A stretch of 64,000 nt of DNA from Natronomonas gomsonensis (GTDB lineage Archaea; Halobacteriota; Halobacteria; Halobacteriales; Haloarculaceae), in NCBI RefSeq assembly GCF_024300825.1, contig NZ_CP101324.1, positions 1-64,000 on the forward strand, read 5' to 3'. Each line of letters opens with the position of its first letter. Position 1 is the stretch's first letter. Positions 31,287-46,528 of the stretch are shown piece by piece. Under the pieces are notes generated by a model, which did no database searches, was not told the origin of the DNA, and was given only the letters and a program-made list of their open reading frames with translations. Position numbers and translations under genes: made by a program.

Positions 31287-32339
31287 ATGGCGGACGCACC
31301 GGATACCGAACGGCAGGCGGTCGAACCCGACGCGAAAGAGGTCCTCAGCGTGTCACAGCTGAACGACCGGATTGCGTCGGTCGTCCAAGACACGCCCGCC
31401 CTCAACGGCGTCCGCTGTATCGGGGAGGTCACTGACCTCCACAAGAACAGTACGGCGCTCTACTTCACGCTCACCGACGGCGAGGCCGAGCTTCCCTGTA
31501 TGATTTGGGCGAACCGCTACCGGGAGATGGACGCCGACCTCGAGGACGGGACCGAAGTCATCCTCGAGGGCGATATCGACTACTGGACAGAGGGCGGGAA
31601 AATCGATCTCAAGCCGTGGGAAATCATCGTCGGCGGCGACGGCGACCAGGCGGCTGCCGTTGAGCGACTGCGAAGCGAACTCGAAGAGCGTGGCTGGTTC
31701 GACGACGGCCAGAAACAGCGCCCGCCGGCGTTCCCAGAGCGGGTTGGGGTCGTAACCTCCCTCCGCGGCGATGCCCGCTATGACATCCAGAACGCGATCC
31801 ACGAGCAGGACCCCACCGTCGACATCTTGGTGAAGGACGCCACCGTCCAAGGGTCGGAGGCGCCCACATCCATCGCGAACGGCATTCACCATCTCGACCG
31901 CTCGGAGGACGTCGACGCCATCATCGTCGGTCGGGGCGGTGGGAGCGATTCGAACCTCCAAGCGTTCAACACCGAGCGGGTCGCGGAGGCGATCTTCACC
32001 GCGAATACCCCGGTGGTCACCGCGATTGGGCACACCGATGACCGGTTAATCGCAGATCAGGTCGCAGATGTGGCAACGATCACGCCGACGGCCGCCGGCG
32101 AGTATATCGTGAATTCCCGCGAGGAGTTCTTCGCGGGCGAGGTCAAGCCGTTGGCCCAGCAACTCGACGCCGCGTACGAAACCTTCCAGCAGGAGCACGA
32201 ACACGAACAGGAACTCGCCGAAGCAGTCGACGAGGCGGCCGCATCCGAGGGGCTCCCGCCGGTCTACTACAAGGCCGCAATCGCTGTGCTGCTGTTGCTG
32301 TTGTTGGCCATCACTGGGCTTTGGTTGGGGGTGATCTAA
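31287..32339 (+). CDS. xseA: Exodeoxyribonuclease VII large-subunit homologue with C-terminal membrane helix
   Basis: ExoVII large subunits degrade single-stranded DNA. The 350-residue protein has the N-terminal OB domain (LSVSQLNDRIASVVQD...GEVTDLHKNSTALYFTL, residues 20-105). The catalytic domain follows with RVGVVTSLRGDARYDI, IIVGRGGGSDSNLQAFN and TAIGHTDDRLIADQVAD. The long coiled coil of bacterial XseA is missing. In its place residues 325-350 form a single membrane helix (AAIAVLLLLLLAITGLWLGVI). It precedes the small-subunit gene by 2 bases and heads the conjugation cluster. Confidence 0.88.
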   Translation: MADAPDTERQAVEPDAKEVLSVSQLNDRIASVVQDTPALNGVRCIGEVTDLHKNSTALYFTLTDGEAELPCMIWANRYREMDADLEDGTEVILEGDIDYWTEGGKIDLKPWEIIVGGDGDQAAAVERLRSELEERGWFDDGQKQRPPAFPERVGVVTSLRGDARYDIQNAIHEQDPTVDILVKDATVQGSEAPTSIANGIHHLDRSEDVDAIIVGRGGGSDSNLQAFNTERVAEAIFTANTPVVTAIGHTDDRLIADQVADVATITPTAAGEYIVNSREEFFAGEVKPLAQQLDAAYETFQQEHEHEQELAEAVDEAAASEGLPPVYYKAAIAVLLLLLLAITGLWLGVI

Positions 32340-37130: not shown

Positions 37131-38252
37131 ATGTCAGCAGATCAAGACGCGGCCGCACGGCGCATCATGGATCAGTTCGGCGAGGAGAGTCGCATCCCGT
37201 ATCTCAATATCGAGGAAGGAGACGTCGGCATGCTCATCGCCTTCCCCATTATTGGGCTGTTTATCGCTGGCCTCACCGGGATCGAGTCGCTTGCCCTCCC
37301 GTTCGTCGCTGGCGGGCTTGGCTTTGGCGTTGCCGTCATCTACGTCTCACCAACCCACCTGAACGCTTGGACGTGGACCAAAGACGTCTATAGGTACCTC
37401 AAGCGACCTCAGATCACGTTCAGTGCGCCCGCCGAAGCCGACACGAGTACCAACGAGTCAGAGCGCAACGAAGGCGGACTCGCGAACTACACGCCGTTCA
37501 AGCCGGACGAGCGGACACAGGACCTCACGAACATCAAGCGGGCGTGGCCGGGTGCTGGTGCCATCCAGCGTGAAGACGGCGCGATGGAGGCGTTCATCGA
37601 GATCGATCCGGCCAACATGGACTTCGCGATGTCCGACGACTGGGCGCAGCTGCAAGACGCCGGCGAAGAGTTCGCCAACAAAGAGCTGGACTCGAAGCTC
37701 AAACTCCACGCCACAACTCGTTCCTTCCCGGTCGAGCAGATCACCGAGACTATCGAGGATCGGCTCACGGACGAAGACGTCACGGAGAACCCGATCTTCC
37801 GGGAACTCCTCGAAGAATATCGGGAAACACGGCCGAAGGAGATGCGTGACCGGGGCATTCAGCAGGTCCGGTACTACATCGGCGTTGAAGTCAGCCCGAT
37901 AGAAGTGTACGACCGCTTCCGCGACGAGGGCACCCCCGCCGAGAAGCTGACCCAGTTCCCCGTCATCGGGTTCCTGTTCAACCCGTTCGTCACCCGCCGC
38001 GAGGACCTCACCGACGTCGAACGTCGTGCGCAGATGTTCGAGAAGCTCGACAGTCGCGTGAACGACGTTCGCTCCGAGTTTATCCAGCAGGCGTCGGGGT
38101 GGTCCGCACGTCGACTCAGCACGGTCGAGCTGTTCGTTCTGAATATGGACTTTTGGAACGGCCGCGAACATGACTACGACGAGGCGGAACGTGTCGTTCG
38201 CGACCAATCGATCATCGGCCACTCGCGCCGGGAGGACCCACACGATGCGTAA
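37131..38252 (+). CDS. PrgI/VirB3-like membrane protein with cytoplasmic domain
   Basis: The N-terminal part has PYLNIEEGDVGMLIAFPIIGLF, a PrgI/VirB3-like two-helix hairpin (about residues 32-76), followed by KDVYRYLKRPQ. Residues 110-373 form a soluble domain (YTPFKPDERTQDLTNIKRAWPGAGAIQREDGAMEAF...) that resembles the N-terminal part of VirB4 ATPases. The 373-residue protein therefore looks like VirB3 joined to a piece of VirB4. The ATPase gene overlaps its end by 8 bases. Confidence 0.7.
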   Translation: MSADQDAAARRIMDQFGEESRIPYLNIEEGDVGMLIAFPIIGLFIAGLTGIESLALPFVAGGLGFGVAVIYVSPTHLNAWTWTKDVYRYLKRPQITFSAPAEADTSTNESERNEGGLANYTPFKPDERTQDLTNIKRAWPGAGAIQREDGAMEAFIEIDPANMDFAMSDDWAQLQDAGEEFANKELDSKLKLHATTRSFPVEQITETIEDRLTDEDVTENPIFRELLEEYRETRPKEMRDRGIQQVRYYIGVEVSPIEVYDRFRDEGTPAEKLTQFPVIGFLFNPFVTRREDLTDVERRAQMFEKLDSRVNDVRSEFIQQASGWSARRLSTVELFVLNMDFWNGREHDYDEAERVVRDQSIIGHSRREDPHDA

Positions 38253-40452
38253 CGTGATCCTCCAGACTGGTGGTGGCGCGCTTGGCTCCGTCGCCGGGTG
38301 GCTCCAGAATCTGACACCAGCAGAGAGTGCAGTACTTGCCCTTGCAGTGGGTCTCGGCCTTGGCGTCGGCAGTAAGTACCTGTGGGACCGCTTCACTGCG
38401 GATGATGAACCAGACGTGGACTTTACCGATGTCCTCGACGAGGAGACACTCGAAGAAGGCGAGGCCGAACGCAAGCTCCTCGACGACATCTCCGAGTCGC
38501 ACAAGACCGTCACCGCTCCCGGAGCTGTCGAGTGGGAAACGCGAGCCGCACGGGTCGGCGAACAGTGGACGACGACACTCTACATCGCTAACTATGCCGA
38601 CTATCCCAACGACGGGTATCTGAGCGACCTCTTCGAGATGACCGATGTCCAGTTCGATTTGACGGCCCACATCACGCCGAAAAATCAGGAGCGGGCCCGG
38701 AACGAACTGCAGGACATCGCTGACGACCTCCAGGTCGATGCTGACCTCGAACAGAGTATCCGGAGCGCCTATCTCCAAGAGCGCGCCAACGAGGCCGCAG
38801 CGACGTACAAGGCCGTCGAGAACGGCGCGAACGTCTTCGACCAAGGGATGTTCATCACCGTGCGGGCCGACGAGAAAGACGAACTCAGAGATGCCGTCCA
38901 GACGGTCAAGAGCGCGCTCCGCGACGACCCGGCGAACCTCACGCCGAAGACGGCTATCTGTCGGCAGGATCTCGCCCTCCAATCCGCCGCGCCCATTGGT
39001 GACAACGAATTCGGGCGGACATCGATTGCGCTCGGCGGCGCCGTCGGCGCGTTGCTGTCCTCGCCGCACAACGCGACGATTCTCGAGGAGGGCGGCGTCG
39101 AGTTCGGGATTCACAAAGATAACCAGAGTCCCGTGGTCATCGACCCGTTCGCGCGGGACAACGGGTACGCGATGTTCACCGTGGGCGACACGGGGTCGGG
39201 GAAGTCGTTCAGTTCGAAGCAGAACTTCATCCGCTCCATCGAGCAGAGTAAGGACCGTATCGGCATCATCCTCGAGCCGCTGAACAACTGGGCCGGTGTC
39301 TCGGAGGCGCTCGACGCCAAGCGGATCACAGTCGGCGGGACGCTCGGGCTGAACCCCTTGGAGATTCGGGAGACGCCCGAACACGTCCAGCGGGCGATGG
39401 GCGAGGACGCGAGCCCGTTCAACGAGAAACTCGACGACGCGATGAGCTTCCTGACGAACTTCTTTGCCCTCCGGGGCATCTCACTGGGAGACCGGCGCAC
39501 TACGCTCGAACTCGCCCTCAAACGTGCCTACCAGCGCAACGGCATCACCGACGACATCTCGACGCACAGCAATCCGAGTCCGACCATCCGTGATATGATG
39601 GACGTCTTCGAGGACATGGTCGACGACCCTGAGGAGTTCGTCGTTCGATCCGACGAAGAGGCAGGGAAGATCAAAGAGGACGCGACGTGGCTCCTCGATC
39701 AGCTGCGCCCCTTCGAGGACGACGGTCGCCACGCCAACCTCGGCCAAGAATCGGATTTCGACATCCGGGACGAGAAGGTCATCTACCTCGATCTGGCCCA
39801 GCAGGAGGGCAGCGTCGACAGCAGCACGGCACTGACGATGCAGCTACTCATCTCGCTGGTGTACGAACGGGCGAAGGTCTCGGAGAAGGAGGTCGTGTTC
39901 TACATCGACGAGGCGCGCTACATCATGCAGGACGCCGCAAGTCTGGCGTTCCTCGAGACGGTGTTCCGGCACCACCGCCACCACGACCTCTCGATCCGGC
40001 TGGTCACCCAGACCGTCGACGAGTTCTTCGAGCACGCCGAAAGCGAGGCGATCCTCGATCAGTGTGCCGTCAAGCAGTTCCACCGCCTCGACGGGATGGA
40101 CAAGGAGTGGGCCGACGAGTTCGGGCTGAACTACGCACAGATGCGGTTCGTCCAGGACGCCGTCCCCGGCAACGAGGACGCCGGCTTCTCCGAAGCACTG
40201 GTTGGCGTCGACGGCGAGTGGCGTGGGATCCAGGTCAAAGCGATGCCCAAGGAGAAGCAGGTCATCGACTTCGAGCCAACCGAGCAACGGCGAGCCTCAC
40301 TCCCCGGGACTGGTGAGAACGCCGTGGACGCGGACGTGCAGGCGTTCCAAGACGATATTGAAAGCCGAGCGACCGACAATGGACAACGCCCACCTGAGCA
40401 GACGCCAGCAGAGACTGATGGTGGCGCAGCGGGAGGTGACGACGATGCGTGA
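38245..40452 (+). CDS. virB4: VirB4/TraC-type conjugation ATPase
   Basis: An AAA+-like motor that drives assembly of the conjugation channel at the membrane (735 aa). It has Walker A VGDTGSGKSFSSKQ (about residues 313-326) and Walker B VVFYIDEARYIM (about 551-562), followed by RLVTQTVDEFFEH. A hydrophobic segment near residues 20-40 may anchor it. The start ATG overlaps the TAA of the previous gene (ATGCGTAA), which fixes it. It is co-translated with the coupling-type ATPase, whose start overlaps in the same way. Confidence 0.9.
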   Translation: MRNVILQTGGGALGSVAGWLQNLTPAESAVLALAVGLGLGVGSKYLWDRFTADDEPDVDFTDVLDEETLEEGEAERKLLDDISESHKTVTAPGAVEWETRAARVGEQWTTTLYIANYADYPNDGYLSDLFEMTDVQFDLTAHITPKNQERARNELQDIADDLQVDADLEQSIRSAYLQERANEAAATYKAVENGANVFDQGMFITVRADEKDELRDAVQTVKSALRDDPANLTPKTAICRQDLALQSAAPIGDNEFGRTSIALGGAVGALLSSPHNATILEEGGVEFGIHKDNQSPVVIDPFARDNGYAMFTVGDTGSGKSFSSKQNFIRSIEQSKDRIGIILEPLNNWAGVSEALDAKRITVGGTLGLNPLEIRETPEHVQRAMGEDASPFNEKLDDAMSFLTNFFALRGISLGDRRTTLELALKRAYQRNGITDDISTHSNPSPTIRDMMDVFEDMVDDPEEFVVRSDEEAGKIKEDATWLLDQLRPFEDDGRHANLGQESDFDIRDEKVIYLDLAQQEGSVDSSTALTMQLLISLVYERAKVSEKEVVFYIDEARYIMQDAASLAFLETVFRHHRHHDLSIRLVTQTVDEFFEHAESEAILDQCAVKQFHRLDGMDKEWADEFGLNYAQMRFVQDAVPGNEDAGFSEALVGVDGEWRGIQVKAMPKEKQVIDFEPTEQRRASLPGTGENAVDADVQAFQDDIESRATDNGQRPPEQTPAETDGGAAGGDDDA

Positions 40453-43400
40453 GTACCTCCGCGTGACGCCTACCTCCGAACGCCTCAATCCGGAGCGGCT
40501 GCCGCAGGCACTGGAGAGTCTCCACAAACTGACCTTAACGAACTCGACAGGGCTAGCTGACAAACTCAATCCGCTACACAGCAAAACACCGCTACGATTC
40601 GAATTCCTCGCGCTCAGCGAGGGTGCAGACGACCCCGTCGAATTCTACTACGGTGCTGACGACCATCTGGATACGCTTGAGAAACGTCTCCGGTCGATCT
40701 ATCCCGAGACGTTCGACATCGAGCGTACCAAAGTCGACGTCGCATCCCGACTCGTGCAGCCTGTGGAATTCGACCGAGAGACATTCGTCGATCACTATGA
40801 GTCGGGCGATCTCACGTACGAGTTCGGTCCTGACGAGCAATACGAACGTGGGACTGACGAAGACAGTCAAGCGAGGCAAGCAGACGCCCAATCAGTCGCG
40901 GAAGGAGGGACGGTCGGCGACCTGTCTGCCGACCACATCATCGAGATCGGAGACACCGCCCTCGAACTCGCCCCACCAGATGCGATTCCCGAGGATGAGC
41001 CACTCACGACGCTTGCCAAACCAACGGTGACAACAGAGGGGACGATACTCGCCCGGCCAGCGACCAAGACCGTCTCCCCACTCGGCGTGCGGTGGCAGGG
41101 GTCGGCCACTCGGAAACAGGACTGGATGACCTCACTCTCGCCATTCACTGCCGACGACGAAGCAGAACTCCCAGCCGTCGATCAGCCAGGTGGTGCGCTC
41201 GCGTCGCTTGTCGACCACCTGATGGAGGCGACAGCACCAGTAGCGTTCCAGGCCGTCTTCCAGCGACGCGAGAGCTGGCAGTCCGATGCCGACCTTCGCA
41301 AGGAGGACGTCATCGACGGCCGAGACACACTCGCTCAGGAGATTATTGGCTCCCTTTTCGAACTCGACGATCAGTCGGAGAGCCGGGACAGAAACCAGCT
41401 GAGCGACGCCGTTGCAAAACGTGTCGCGGCAATCGAGGCGAAAAATCCGAAGCGGTCGTTCACCGCGAACATCCGAGCGATCGGGATTCCGTCCGGGGAC
41501 GACGGTCGCGATGATCTCGATGATCGGATGCAATCACTTGTCCCGGTATTCGACCCGCTTGACGGACCGTACTACGAGGTTGCGGCCGAACGGGTACGCG
41601 ACAGCGGCTTCCGGGCAGCCACGAAAGAACGGAACGCACGAGCGGCGCTGCAGCGGCTCTTGGATCGTGAGATCACGACCGGCCGTGGGACGACCCGACC
41701 CGAGTTCGTCCTGAGTGGCCGAGAACTCGCGAATTTCGTACTCGTGCCCTCCTCGGAACAGCTGACTGTCGAGGGGGCACGTGGGACGCGTGCGGAACAG
41801 CAGAGTCGGAATCCATTGCCACGCCCCCACCAGGACCTCATGAGTGAATTCCGCGACGGGATGGCAATCGGGTATGCCCTCGACGACACCGGCGAGGCCG
41901 AAGACGAGCCGACACACATTCCACCCGGACTGCTGCCCACTCATTACGGCCGGTTCGGAACAACCGGCTCTGGGAAGTCGAAAGCCCTCATCAACGATAT
42001 GCTGTCGCTGTACGCCAACACCGAGGGGCCGACGATCCTCATCATCCCGAAGAACGACGACATGGCCCAGAATTATATGCGGGCTCACGCGCGTCGGTTC
42101 GGAATGACCGACCTCCAAGAGAACGTCGTCCACTTCCCGATCCCGGACGTCCTCCCCGGGTTCTCGTTTTTCGATCTCGAACCGTCGATGGAGAGCGGAC
42201 GGCGCCGCGAAGACGCCGTCCAACGGAAGGCCGACCACTACGAAGAGATTTTGAAGCTCGTGATGGGAACCGACCGCTACGAGCGGGCGACTGTGGCCCC
42301 AACTCTCATCAAGACACTCATCAAGACACTGTTCGACGAGGAATACGGGCGTGAGAACGGGCTCTACCGAGCGTCGACGGACTACTTCGCCCACCGACAG
42401 CTCGAACACGTCGTCGACCAGCTCTGGGAGGCCGGGCCACCGAACGAGAACATCGGCGACGCCCCACGGTCGAGCGACGAGGAAGTCACCCGGACGATTC
42501 GACGGCAGCTCCAGTTAGATTCGAACACCTTCGCGAACGTGATGGGCGGTGTCGGAAACCGTCTCGCCTACATCTCACAGGATACGCACCTGCGGCAGAT
42601 CTTCAATAATACCGAGAACCAGTTCGACTTTCGGGATGTCCTCGACGAGGATACGGTCATCCTCTTCGACCTCGGCGACCTCCGCGACGACGCCGCCCGG
42701 ATCATGACCGGTGTGATCCTGACCAATCTCGATGCAGCTCTCAAGGACCGCAAACAGGCCCTCCCCCAGCACTCGGACGACTACGTCGTGAACTTGCTCG
42801 TCGACGAGGCAGCATCGGTCGTGGTCTCCGACATCATGAATGATCTCCTCGAGAAAGGCCGGGGATTCCGGCTCTCTGTTGGTCTGTCGATGCAGTTCCC
42901 CGAACAGATGGAGGCTGAAGGTGGGCGGAAGATCTACCTGAATGCTCTGAACAACATCGGCAGTTCACTCATCGGGAAAATCAACGTCGACCGGGAACTG
43001 GCGCGAGCGATGGCCCACGAAGAGATGGACCCCGCGGATTTCGCCAATCGGATTCGTTCGTTGCCACGAGGGGAGTGGATCGCCAGCCTGCCAAGCCCGA
43101 CGTTCGGTGAAACGGGGCCGTATCCGTTCAGTCTCGAACCACTCCCGATCCCACCGGGCCACCCCGAGAGCGAATCCCCGCTCACTGAGCGTGAAGAGGA
43201 GCAGTTCACTGAGACACTCTCCTCGATGCACGAGGACATCAGTGACGAACACGGTGTGCCGGCTGAGCCAGACACTTCAACAACGAGCACACCGACCAAC
43301 GGACACGAGGTGCTCGATATCGAGAGTGACGACTTGGACGGTGCGATTGCGAAGGTGGTCCGGAGTCTCCAGCTTCGAGAGGGCTGCCGTGAGGAGAACG

Positions 43401-44827
43401 GCTGGGTGGCCGTTGAAGCAGTTGACGACGAACTCAGACGGCTCTTTGACGACACCGACGCCGAACCGCCATCGTATGATGCACTCGCAGATATTCGAGA
43501 ACGATCACGATACCTCGATACGACCGTCGATATCGACGCCGACGAGCTCCGCATCCGGCTCACTGACGCCGGAGAAGAGGTCGCGACACCCGATACTGGT
43601 GGCGTGCAGGCCGCTGGTGGAAGTGCCCACGACGCAGCACTCCTTCAGATCGAAGAAGAACTCACTGCACTCGGTTTCACCGTCTCGATCCTCGCACAGG
43701 ATGGCAGCGAGAAACCTGACGCGAGGGCGAGCCACCCCGACGTTTCCGACCGATTCGCCATCGAAGTCGAAACGACGACACCCGAGAATCCCGCGAAAGT
43801 GCTCACGAATCTCCGGAAGGCCCAAGCAGCAGGTGATATCCCGCTGTTTGTCGTTCGACCAGGAAACGACGAAACTGAGTGGGCCGAGCGTGTTGACGGC
43901 ATTCTCACGCCACCCGTCCGTACCCTCCAGAATGGTGAGACACGGTTCTACACGACTGACTCGAATCTCACGTTCAGCGGTGGAGCGACCGAAGAAGGTG
44001 GAGTGACGGCCGTGCGACCGGCGACCGACGACGAGAACGGGACCCAGAACATCTGGCAGCGTGATGGCGCCGAGATCGTCCTTCGTGATGCCAGCGGGAC
44101 GGAACATATCCGCCTCGAGTCGCTTGAAAAACTCTCGAAAGATCGTGTTCCGGCCATCTACAGCTACGACCACGCTGCCGACGAGTACGTCGTTTATGAG
44201 CACGGTGAGCAACACATCTACGAGACGAAATCGGCGTTCGAGGACGACTGGATTCGGATCAAAAAGCCGTTCGTTCCGGAAGACGAGTTCTCCACCCCAG
44301 AGTACAGCTGCGACAGCTACGTAATCGTGATTCTTGCCGATGAGAAGTCATCAGTCGTCTACACGGACGGGACAACGAAACCTCTCACAACCCTATTTGA
44401 TCACTCAACCGCCCACAATGAATCAGAGGGGGACTCCAAAAACGACGACGAAAATAGTGACCGGGCGGAGACTGACTATCGGGCCGAATCTGCTCCGGGA
44501 GAGGATATGCCGAGGGAAGATTCCTCAGAGCAAATCTCCCAAACTAACGGGAGTGAACTCGATCACGACGCGGACGATTTCGAGTCATTCGTTGACGTGT
44601 ACGTTACCGAAGAAGAGGACGCGGAACTCCCGAAGGATGATCTCTATAATGCGTATCGGATATGGGCAATCAGACACGACAAAGAAGTTCAATCGAAAGC
44701 GTGGTTCTCCCGTTCTCTCGGGGAGTTCGTAACGTATGATACGAGTCGGATTCGTCAAAATGGAACCCGCGTGAACTGCTATACAGGTATTTCGCTCACG
44801 GCAGCAGGGCAACAGTTGATTGAATGA
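40445..44827 (+). CDS. Coupling-type ATPase with nuclease-like and primase-tail-like C-terminal domains
   Basis: A very large protein (1460 aa). The motor part has Walker A GTTGSGKS (about residues 503-510) and Walker B LLVDEAAS (about 784-791), as in TraG/TraD/HerA coupling ATPases that feed DNA to the channel. Residues 1060-1170 (LLQIEEELTALGFTVSIL...PDAR...IEVETTTP) resemble a PD-(D/E)XK nuclease core. The last 80 residues (LYNAYRIWAIRHDKEVQSK...YTGISLT) resemble the C-terminal winged helix of phage/plasmid primases. The start is fixed by ATGCGTGA overlap with virB4. Confidence 0.78.
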   Translation: MREYLRVTPTSERLNPERLPQALESLHKLTLTNSTGLADKLNPLHSKTPLRFEFLALSEGADDPVEFYYGADDHLDTLEKRLRSIYPETFDIERTKVDVASRLVQPVEFDRETFVDHYESGDLTYEFGPDEQYERGTDEDSQARQADAQSVAEGGTVGDLSADHIIEIGDTALELAPPDAIPEDEPLTTLAKPTVTTEGTILARPATKTVSPLGVRWQGSATRKQDWMTSLSPFTADDEAELPAVDQPGGALASLVDHLMEATAPVAFQAVFQRRESWQSDADLRKEDVIDGRDTLAQEIIGSLFELDDQSESRDRNQLSDAVAKRVAAIEAKNPKRSFTANIRAIGIPSGDDGRDDLDDRMQSLVPVFDPLDGPYYEVAAERVRDSGFRAATKERNARAALQRLLDREITTGRGTTRPEFVLSGRELANFVLVPSSEQLTVEGARGTRAEQQSRNPLPRPHQDLMSEFRDGMAIGYALDDTGEAEDEPTHIPPGLLPTHYGRFGTTGSGKSKALINDMLSLYANTEGPTILIIPKNDDMAQNYMRAHARRFGMTDLQENVVHFPIPDVLPGFSFFDLEPSMESGRRREDAVQRKADHYEEILKLVMGTDRYERATVAPTLIKTLIKTLFDEEYGRENGLYRASTDYFAHRQLEHVVDQLWEAGPPNENIGDAPRSSDEEVTRTIRRQLQLDSNTFANVMGGVGNRLAYISQDTHLRQIFNNTENQFDFRDVLDEDTVILFDLGDLRDDAARIMTGVILTNLDAALKDRKQALPQHSDDYVVNLLVDEAASVVVSDIMNDLLEKGRGFRLSVGLSMQFPEQMEAEGGRKIYLNALNNIGSSLIGKINVDRELARAMAHEEMDPADFANRIRSLPRGEWIASLPSPTFGETGPYPFSLEPLPIPPGHPESESPLTEREEEQFTETLSSMHEDISDEHGVPAEPDTSTTSTPTNGHEVLDIESDDLDGAIAKVVRSLQLREGCREENGWVAVEAVDDELRRLFDDTDAEPPSYDALADIRERSRYLDTTVDIDADELRIRLTDAGEEVATPDTGGVQAAGGSAHDAALLQIEEELTALGFTVSILAQDGSEKPDARASHPDVSDRFAIEVETTTPENPAKVLTNLRKAQAAGDIPLFVVRPGNDETEWAERVDGILTPPVRTLQNGETRFYTTDSNLTFSGGATEEGGVTAVRPATDDENGTQNIWQRDGAEIVLRDASGTEHIRLESLEKLSKDRVPAIYSYDHAADEYVVYEHGEQHIYETKSAFEDDWIRIKKPFVPEDEFSTPEYSCDSYVIVILADEKSSVVYTDGTTKPLTTLFDHSTAHNESEGDSKNDDENSDRAETDYRAESAPGEDMPREDSSEQISQTNGSELDHDADDFESFVDVYVTEEEDAELPKDDLYNAYRIWAIRHDKEVQSKAWFSRSLGEFVTYDTSRIRQNGTRVNCYTGISLTAAGQQLIE

Positions 44828-45274
44828 AGAGAAATCTATGAGGTACTTGAATTCGAGACGGGTCATCAAAAAACCGCCCGAAGGCGTTGCCGGTCAGGGG
44901 AAACGACCACTAACAGCACGAGAGGGTAAGAATCAAGAGTTAATGCTCGGTTATGGACCGAGAAAAACGCAAGACGGAACCGCCGGTCAGGGCATCTGGG
45001 AGGGGCAACAGTATCTAACATCAAGTGAACATACGAAATCGCAGGACGGCGCTGCTGGTCAGGGGAAATTAAGAAAGGGTACTCCCGCCCGTATCAGCGG
45101 TCAGGGGAAAAACCACCAGACGGCGAAGCTGGTCAGGGGTATCACCGAGCGAAAACCAACTAGGATAGAACGGGGGGTCCCCGTTGGGACCAAGGGATTG
45201 GATCGAGGAGTAGAACTGAGTGAGTTCTGTGCTGGCTCAGAATTAGTGAAAGCCATGCAAGGTACTGTGAGAAC
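44828..45274 (+). repeat. GGTCAGGGG repeat array between coupling ATPase and primase genes
   Basis: Five copies of GGTCAGGG(G) lie at 44892-44900, 44985-44992, 45057-45065, 45099-45107 and 45131-45139. Upstream bases are partly shared (GACGGcgctGCy), so the unit is about 20-24 bp. Distances between copies shrink: 93, 72, 42 and 32. A 152-codon frame (44820-45278) reads four copies as AGQGK/SGQGK, but the fifth is out of frame. Base composition is A/G-rich, unlike nearby genes. Iteron-like or oriT-like DNA is possible; a repeat protein is the alternative. Confidence 0.55.
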
Positions 45275-46528
45275 ATGAGTAAGAATATCATCGACGAACC
45301 GGAGGCGATCCCGGAGACGCTACGCGAACGGGACCAATGGGTGTGCTGGCGCGAAGAGGAGCGAGACGGCAAGCCGACGAAGATTCCGGTAACGCCGGGG
45401 GCTGGGGGGTTTGCGTCATCAACAGAGCCGGAGACCTGGGCGAATTTTGAGGCAGCACTCGAGTACACCGAGACGGCACACGCCGATGGTGTCGGGTTCG
45501 TGTTTACCGACGACGATCCCATCGTCGGCGTCGATCTGGACGACTGCCGCGATCCTGAAACCGGCGACGTCGACGACGCGGCACTAGACATCATCGAGCG
45601 CCTCGACTCCTATACGGAGGTGTCACCGTCCGGCACCGGCTATCACGTCCTCATCAGGGGCGAACTTCCCGACGGGCGGAACCGTCGCGGGAGCATCGAA
45701 CTGTACGACACGGCACGCTTTTTCACCGTCACTGGCGATCACGTCGAGCGGACACCAACGTGCGTTGCACGTCGACAGGACGCGCTCAGAGCGATTCACC
45801 GTGAGTACGTTCAGGAGACAGAGCGTGACACGGCAGCAGAGTCCGAACAGCGTGGTAGCACTGACGACGAGTCACCGACGCCCGGTGGAGCCGCCGTTGA
45901 CGTCGACCTCGAAGACGAGGACCTCCTCGAGAAAGCGCGGAATGCATCGAACGGCGAGAAGTTCGAGCGGCTCTGGAACGGGAACACAGCCGGCTACGAC
46001 AGCCAGTCCGAGGCCGACATGGCGCTGTGCTGTCTGCTGGCGTTCTGGACCGGTGGTGACCGGACCCAAATGGAGCAGCTGTTCCGCCAGTCAGGATTGC
46101 TTCGGGAGAAGTGGGACGAGGTCCACTACGCTGATGGGTCGACGTATGGGGAGAAGACCATCGAGCGAGCAATTGCGACTACTTCGGAGTTCTACGACCC
46201 GGACGCCGGCGACGATACCGCAGATGATATCTCCGCCACATCGTCGCCAGACGTCGGCGCTGCTGACTCGGAGCGGAGTCGCGCATATCTCGCCGAGAAG
46301 AACCAGATCTTGAGCGACCGCGTCGACGAACTCGAGGCGACACTCACGGAGAAAACCGAGCGCATCGACGCTCTCGAAGCGGAGGTCAAGCGACTCACTG
46401 ACGAACTTGCCACCCGTGGCCAGGAGGAGGAGTGCCAGGGCGAGCACGCCGCTACTACGAGTGAGAACAGTAGTGAGTCAGAGTCATCCTCACTGTTGGG
46501 TCGGTTATTCGGCGGTCGGTCCAAGTAG
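45275..46528 (+). CDS. Phage/plasmid-type primase-polymerase-like protein
   Basis: The 417-residue protein begins with a primase-polymerase-like domain (ERDQWVCWREEERDGKPTKIPVTPG, then GVGFVFTDDDPIVGVDLDDC with acidic residues, about residues 65-90, and SPSGTGYHVLIRGE). Next comes a region SEADMALCCLLAFWTGGDRTQMEQLFRQSGL typical of the helix bundle that follows such domains in NrS-1-like primases. The C-terminus is a coiled coil (EATLTEKTERIDALEAEVKRL). It may make primers for plasmid replication or transfer. It is too short to include a helicase. Confidence 0.8.
   Translation: MSKNIIDEPEAIPETLRERDQWVCWREEERDGKPTKIPVTPGAGGFASSTEPETWANFEAALEYTETAHADGVGFVFTDDDPIVGVDLDDCRDPETGDVDDAALDIIERLDSYTEVSPSGTGYHVLIRGELPDGRNRRGSIELYDTARFFTVTGDHVERTPTCVARRQDALRAIHREYVQETERDTAAESEQRGSTDDESPTPGGAAVDVDLEDEDLLEKARNASNGEKFERLWNGNTAGYDSQSEADMALCCLLAFWTGGDRTQMEQLFRQSGLLREKWDEVHYADGSTYGEKTIERAIATTSEFYDPDAGDDTADDISATSSPDVGAADSERSRAYLAEKNQILSDRVDELEATLTEKTERIDALEAEVKRLTDELATRGQEEECQGEHAATTSENSSESESSSLLGRLFGGRSK

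Follow-up and report, generated by a model that had tools for sequence, protein, structure and literature searches.

The 447-nt gap (44828-45274) between a TraG-like ATPase gene and a primase-like gene on a plasmid of Natronomonas gomsonensis is probably a cis-acting, oriT/clt-like transfer origin of a haloarchaeal conjugation plasmid, whose repeated octamers would be bound by the winged-helix (wHTH) tail of the coupling ATPase. We favor this reading of the sequence comparisons because the ATPase belongs to a type IV secretion system (T4SS) cluster, in which the simplest role for a tail that recognizes DNA is to select cargo. The C-terminal winged helix would bind plasmid-specific octamers (GGTCAGGG here), this binding would mark the plasmid as cargo, and the bound ATPase would be positioned or loaded beside a hairpin element (45156-45187) at which strand processing or entry would begin. 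The layout of an oriT is present: repeats, and with them an inverted repeat, in non-coding DNA of a transfer cluster. An earlier note on the window, the 64,000-nt stretch of DNA analysed here, had described the repeats; beyond that note, the repeats are found to belong with the C-terminal wHTH of the ATPase, and the functional unit reaches the covarying hairpin.

The repeat array and its surroundings

The features of the window are as follows.
38245-40452, + strand: VirB4-like type IV secretion ATPase (NCBIfam VirB4-type matches, 1.3e-37 and 6.4e-36; 'VirB4 family type IV secretion system protein' in L004)
40445-44827, + strand: TraG/TraD/HerA-like coupling ATPase of 1460 aa, its start set from the L004 CDS (NCBIfam SXT_TraD 1.3e-6, CedB 2e-4; weak Pfam DUF87 and TraG-D_C)
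44285-44824, + strand: exchanged C-terminal block of the ATPase, made up of linker and winged helix (beyond residue ~1280, identity to L006 and L007 drops to 17-38% from 88-98%)
44570-44824, + strand: predicted winged-helix DNA-binding domain (recognition helix 44693-44725, wing 44735-44782)
44869-44903, + strand: site 1, context plus core GGTCAGGG at 44892-44899
44963-44996, + strand: site 2, context plus core at 44985-44992
45036-45068, + strand: site 3, context plus core at 45057-45064
45098-45110, + strand: site 4, core at 45099-45106 without the constant context, degenerate in L005
45108-45142, + strand: site 5, context plus core at 45131-45138
45149-45274, + strand: conserved right half, common to plasmids with different repeats
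45156-45187, no strand: dyad CCAAC(TAGGATAGAACGGGGGGTCCCC)GTTGG, i.e. CCAAC-N22-GTTGG, with a pairing outer stem
45275-46528, + strand: primase-polymerase-like protein with an NrS-1-type HBD domain (Pfam PF22763, 2.1e-31)

Five exact forward-strand copies of GGTCAGGG start at 44892, 44985, 45057, 45099 and 45131, an array spanning 44892-45138 with start-to-start spacings of 93, 72, 42 and 32 nt. These positions agree with the earlier note, which had also placed the gap correctly between a transfer ATPase and a primase-like gene; the narrowing of the spacing it remarked on is there as a set of distances but is incidental, because other plasmid types have other spacings. When extended, four of the five copies read GGTCAGGGG and the second reads GGTCAGGGC. 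The octamer occurs nowhere else on the 107,365-bp plasmid contig, and pairs of it no more than 140 bp apart are found only in the gap within the 3.65-Mb genome. The best-octamer score of the gap is 5.0, against a mean of 2.5 and a maximum of 3.4 in dinucleotide shuffles (0 of 100 reached it); 11 loci were covered by such shuffles, and the score of one, L149, was reached in 2 of 100. The GC content of the gap is about 0.51-0.55, and GC and AT skew are both positive, which bears out the purine richness that had been noticed. Neither Rfam (44400-45700) nor a tRNA search gave a match.

A context of about 20 nt, AAA.CGC..GACGG, stands 5' of copies 2 and 3; copies 1 and 5 follow closely similar versions of it and copy 4 has none, so that the partly shared context described earlier holds for four copies. 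In many plasmid types, one core or more follows this context (44869-45123 in the window, sites 1, 2, 3 and 5). Retention of the context regardless of the octamer suggests a second, invariant DNA-binding partner.

Do the repeats act as DNA, or are they what is left of a gene? The earlier note had proposed a role at the DNA level (oriT or iterons), with a decaying repeat gene as the alternative. A 152-codon open frame does cross the gap, and four GGTCAGGG copies share one frame (AGQGK) while the fifth is out of frame, as had been stated. In the 79% identical locus L005 (plasmid phalar01), however, the gap is also 447 nt, with no length change, and the differences fall on the three codon positions as 41/37/29, without coding-type bias; the frame carries an in-frame stop there and in L011. 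RefSeq annotates no gene in the gap of a 97.6%-identical plasmid, and in relatives the sequence is replaced wholesale. With in-frame stops and an absence of coding constraint, a coding repeat gene was ruled out, and that the repeats are the remnant of a translated repeat protein is vanishingly improbable. Between L005 and the window, identity is 91% in the cores and 64% in the spacers, the conserved islands being the sites and their context. Sites and spacing are thus kept while spacers diverge, in support of the proposed role at the DNA level, and the frame is not.

The T4SS cluster around the coupling ATPase comprises a small membrane protein, a multi-TM protein and VirB4. Just upstream of it lies an xseA-like gene (Exodeoxyribonuclease VII large subunit, 31287-32339), unusual on an archaeal plasmid; in L004 it is followed by a small gene, xseB. 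The statement that neither relaxase nor initiator was found agrees, as to the relaxase, with a search of the genome for three families, Relaxase, TrwC and MobA_MobL, which gave no match; with none of these three represented, a nicking step has no known enzyme. It does not stand for the initiator: an Orc1/Cdc6 gene lies on the same contig at 78,984-79,271, outside the window and about 34 kb from the repeats. PLSDB classes these plasmids as 'non-mobilizable', by a typing based on bacterial relaxases, and this label was given no weight.

Octamers and the winged-helix tail

A blast search returned 87 plasmids, and a relative of the primase-like gene is found in 228 of 391 haloarchaeal genomes. The non-coding gap is present again in most of the haloarchaeal relatives that have this pair of TraG-like ATPase and primase genes. 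We extracted 158 loci, some overlapping or re-fetched and 94 of them non-redundant. In each, an ATPase that has the tail motif comes first, then a gap of 267-447 nt, then the primase-like gene. The gaps of nearly all contain a repeated octamer, whose sequence depends on the plasmid type: GGTCAGGG, GTTCAGGG, GTCCGGGG, GTCCACGC, GTTACGGC, GTTCCACC, GTGACACC, GTCCAACC or GTCCAGGC, as called automatically (8-mers, one mismatch), with a few loci weak or ambiguous (e.g. L107, L159, L163 and L167). Absence of the repeats from related plasmids, which would have spoken against the proposal of the earlier note, was looked for: the place is kept, while the exact sequence is not, another repeated octamer and a different ATPase tail being found instead. 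Across unrelated octamers the site positions are fixed relative to the downstream AACCAACTAG hairpin element, in one class at about -97, -79, -55 and -23 and in another at -175(+), -116(+), -98(-), -68(-) and -10(+). All copies in a gap change together. Locus L009 has GGTCAGGG as in the window, though its primase is just 60% identical. In L023 and L036, which are broken loci, TnpB-like genes stand directly upstream of the primase gene.

What determines the octamer? Across 82 loci, the distance between octamers correlates with that between wHTHs (r=0.62). The correlation persists when the ATPase body and the primase are taken into account (partial Mantel r=0.595, p 5e-4, in a test that corrects for ancestry incompletely); body and primase explain nothing of the octamer beyond the wHTH. 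Natural swaps give the same picture. The ATPase body up to residue ~1260 is 82-100% identical and the primase ~94%, the wHTH is ~31% identical and the octamer is different; ATPase identity declines over the 60 residues after ~1260 and is then 17-38% over the last ~140. Blastn similarity between the window and several plasmids begins at 45149, just past the repeats. Given the drop at the ATPase tail and this starting point, tail and repeats have been exchanged as one block. Part of the covariation is co-inheritance, because the wHTH and the repeats are physically linked. Hitch-hiking of the repeats with the tail was judged insufficient as an explanation: where two loci have their octamer in common and wHTHs that are ~64% identical, identity is 78% in the sites and 41% in the spacers, so that sites are far better kept than spacers at equal wHTH divergence. 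The co-variation strongly supports recognition of the octamers by the ATPase wHTH, and we infer that the wHTH would physically bind them.

The more distant ATPases that lack the wHTH (L222-L234) have no repeat array downstream, and in several genomes with a wHTH-less ATPase the primase-like gene directly follows VirB4. In the chromosomal elements L113, L121, L123, L126 and L128, which have this order, the wHTH-less ATPase is found at a distance of tens of kb, which in G308 is ~34 kb.

The nature of the tail becomes clear only through alignment and predicted fold; phmmer with the full ATPase found nothing among PDB sequences. Pfam Pox_D5 was matched in 32 of 36 homologues (best 1.8e-8), and the profile matches are D5 and RFX winged helices. 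An AlphaFold2 model of the tail is a confident winged helix (core pLDDT ~96), whose best solved match is the RFX DNA-binding domain with X-box DNA (1dp7; Foldseek E 4e-5, VIA Z 12.1), followed by RFX5 (VIA Z 12.0) and the phage P4 origin-binding domain (1ka8; VIA Z 9.3, rmsd 2.3 over 80 residues). TcpK (5vfx) is also among the structural matches, at Z 4.5, and the named viral matches include several helicase-primases. In both sequence and modeled fold, the tail matches winged-helix domains of the P4/D5-RFX type. The array, its fixed geometry, the co-inheritance of specificity with the wHTH, and the predicted wHTH fold all have strong support from sequence.

Some tails depart from this pattern. 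In L114, on the G360 chromosome, a divergent tail has HLTPALKEH replacing WFxRxL; the octamer repeated at this locus is again a different one, CCTCAGAG, and a CGACTAGTATAG element is present. The ATPase tails of L064, L071 and L284 are truncated or frame-broken at the wHTH.

The hairpin element and units without transfer genes

The outer stem of the hairpin is paired in 96.7% of cells over 43 distinct sequences. Double changes from A-U to G-C occur in 12 of the 43, with more at the first pair, and slid controls fall short of this. A base-paired structure would account for this covariation, and so would a protein that binds the dyad. The loop holds TAGTATAG (TAGGATAG in the window). In relatives, a TATA-like TAGTATA lies about 110 nt upstream of the primase start codon, with a conserved leader of ~80 nt. 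Between 45188 and 45274, before the primase start, there is a second dyad whose sequence varies with the plasmid group (CTGGCTCAGAGCCAG; TATCA..TGATA; GCGCC..GGCGC) and whose place is roughly kept.

A pattern built on the hairpin element gave 53 matches in 44 genomes and none in a reversed control. Among the units found, five on other replicons have neither an ATPase nor a VirB4 or primase match within about 5 kb; L270 contains two of them, and L271, L273 and L274 contain one apiece. These lone units keep the repeats, hairpin and leader without the primase gene, and in four of the five the octamer is that of an ATPase in the same genome. Both lone octamers of G174 (GTCCAGGC; TTACGGC) match its two resident ATPases, and the lone units of G338 and G278 each match an ATPase of their own genome, the latter judged by tail sequence because the G278 ATPase is truncated in the wHTH; the octamer of L271, in G060, differs from that of the resident ATPase. 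A comparison of the tra-linked L117 with the lone unit L270a finds similarity confined to about -147 to +121 relative to the hairpin, a stretch that gives the outline of the cis unit. Lone units could be mobilizable sites or remnants of lost transfer loci. The second unit of L270 and that of L274 come from two species and share a downstream flank of 2.6 kb at 98% identity, with different octamers there, as if the unit had been exchanged at this place without tra genes.

Transfer, replication or regulation

Folds of the D5/P4 type are known best from proteins that initiate replication; in phage P4, the origin-binding domain of the alpha protein reads the ori iterons. Might the gap be a replication origin at which the primase-like protein acts, with the repeats as iterons for the D5/P4-like winged helix? 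The tail resembles the P4 origin-binding domain and D5, a primase-polymerase-like gene adjoins, and the array is iteron-like. However, the fusion partner of the wHTH is a T4SS-type ATPase and not a replicative helicase, and a GC-skew walk of the whole plasmid has no switch at the gap. An iteron origin would have its initiator beside the repeats and no other on the plasmid, whereas Orc1/Cdc6 is encoded at C2:78,984. A replication origin is unlikely, because Orc1/Cdc6 genes are present both on this contig and on a close relative, and because the unit also lies on chromosome-size contigs, and twice on one 637-kb replicon. We infer transfer rather than replication for the gap.

An operator or promoter, at which the ATPase tail or another regulator on the repeats would control the primase operon, would suit the position of the gap directly upstream of the primase gene and the TATA-like sequence and leader of relatives. 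It is less likely still, because the lone units retain the leader, with repeats and hairpin, in the absence of the primase gene; specificity switching with the tail of a motor protein would also be unusual for a promoter, and in several wHTH-less cases the primase gene follows VirB4 without such a region. As tandem sites specific to the plasmid type and read by a plasmid protein, the repeats further resemble parS or incompatibility arrays, and could be a centromere-like partition or maintenance site with the ATPase as anchor. This would be surprising, given that the recognizer is an ATPase of the T4SS cluster and that a related plasmid has its ParA gene elsewhere. Transfer is presumably the purpose of the gap.

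A transfer origin of this kind is reminiscent of TraB/clt of Streptomyces, where, according to published accounts, a plasmid-coded DNA-translocating ATPase reads 8-bp repeats (TRS) at a cis locus and a relaxase is unneeded (PMC4170104, PMC12857230, PMC3218068). Here too, short plasmid-specific repeats stand at a cis locus beside the translocase gene. Unlike TraB, the ATPase is TraG/TraD/HerA-like with a VirB4 partner (its matches are HerA, TraG-D_C, SXT_TraD and CedB, none FtsK), and the recognition domain of RFX/P4-D5 type, the covarying hairpin, the constant 5' context and the archaeal host are further differences. In the Clostridium perfringens plasmid pCW3, a 9-nt sequence that recurs in tandem within oriT is bound by the winged helix of TcpK (PMC6137059), a likeness in winged helix and tandem short repeats, with binding here predicted; TcpK is a separate small protein, whereas here the winged helix is part of the coupling ATPase and has RFX and P4 as nearer structural relatives (Z 12.1 and 9.3). 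The system is a member of neither the TraB-clt nor the TcpK-oriT type, because its ATPase is not FtsK-like and its winged helix is fused and RFX/P4-like. With phage P4 alpha and the D5-type helicase-primases it shares the fold class and its place at the C-terminus of a P-loop ATPase, but the ATPase here is a T4SS coupling-type motor in place of a replicative helicase-primase, and the primase-like protein has a gene of its own.

Archaeal conjugation (Sulfolobus pNOB8-type, Thermococcus pT33-3, Ced/Ted) is described in published accounts as using VirB4- and VirD4-like ATPases with no recognizable relaxase; for archaeal conjugative plasmids no relaxase is known and the mechanism is considered open (PMC12857230, PMC9905601). 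The haloarchaeal locus is similar in its VirB4- and VirD4-like ATPases, and the lack of a match to the three relaxase families in the genome is in keeping with these accounts. For those systems we found no cis-acting transfer site described in the excerpts of these accounts, and no archaeal oriT in the literature searched; the haloarchaeal locus supplies a candidate and would be the first transfer origin predicted on archaeal plasmids. More tentatively, it is possible that this is the first identified archaeal transfer origin and is relaxosome-free, the ATPase picking its DNA through a swappable phage-type wHTH, with wHTH and array an exchanged cassette and tra-less units mobilized in trans. 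The locus offers a defined candidate of ~300 bp, a predicted recognizer and at least eight natural specificities, from which the pairing of ATPases with their DNA can be predicted. DNA selection by an archaeal transfer machinery becomes directly testable, and elements without tra genes become findable by pattern.
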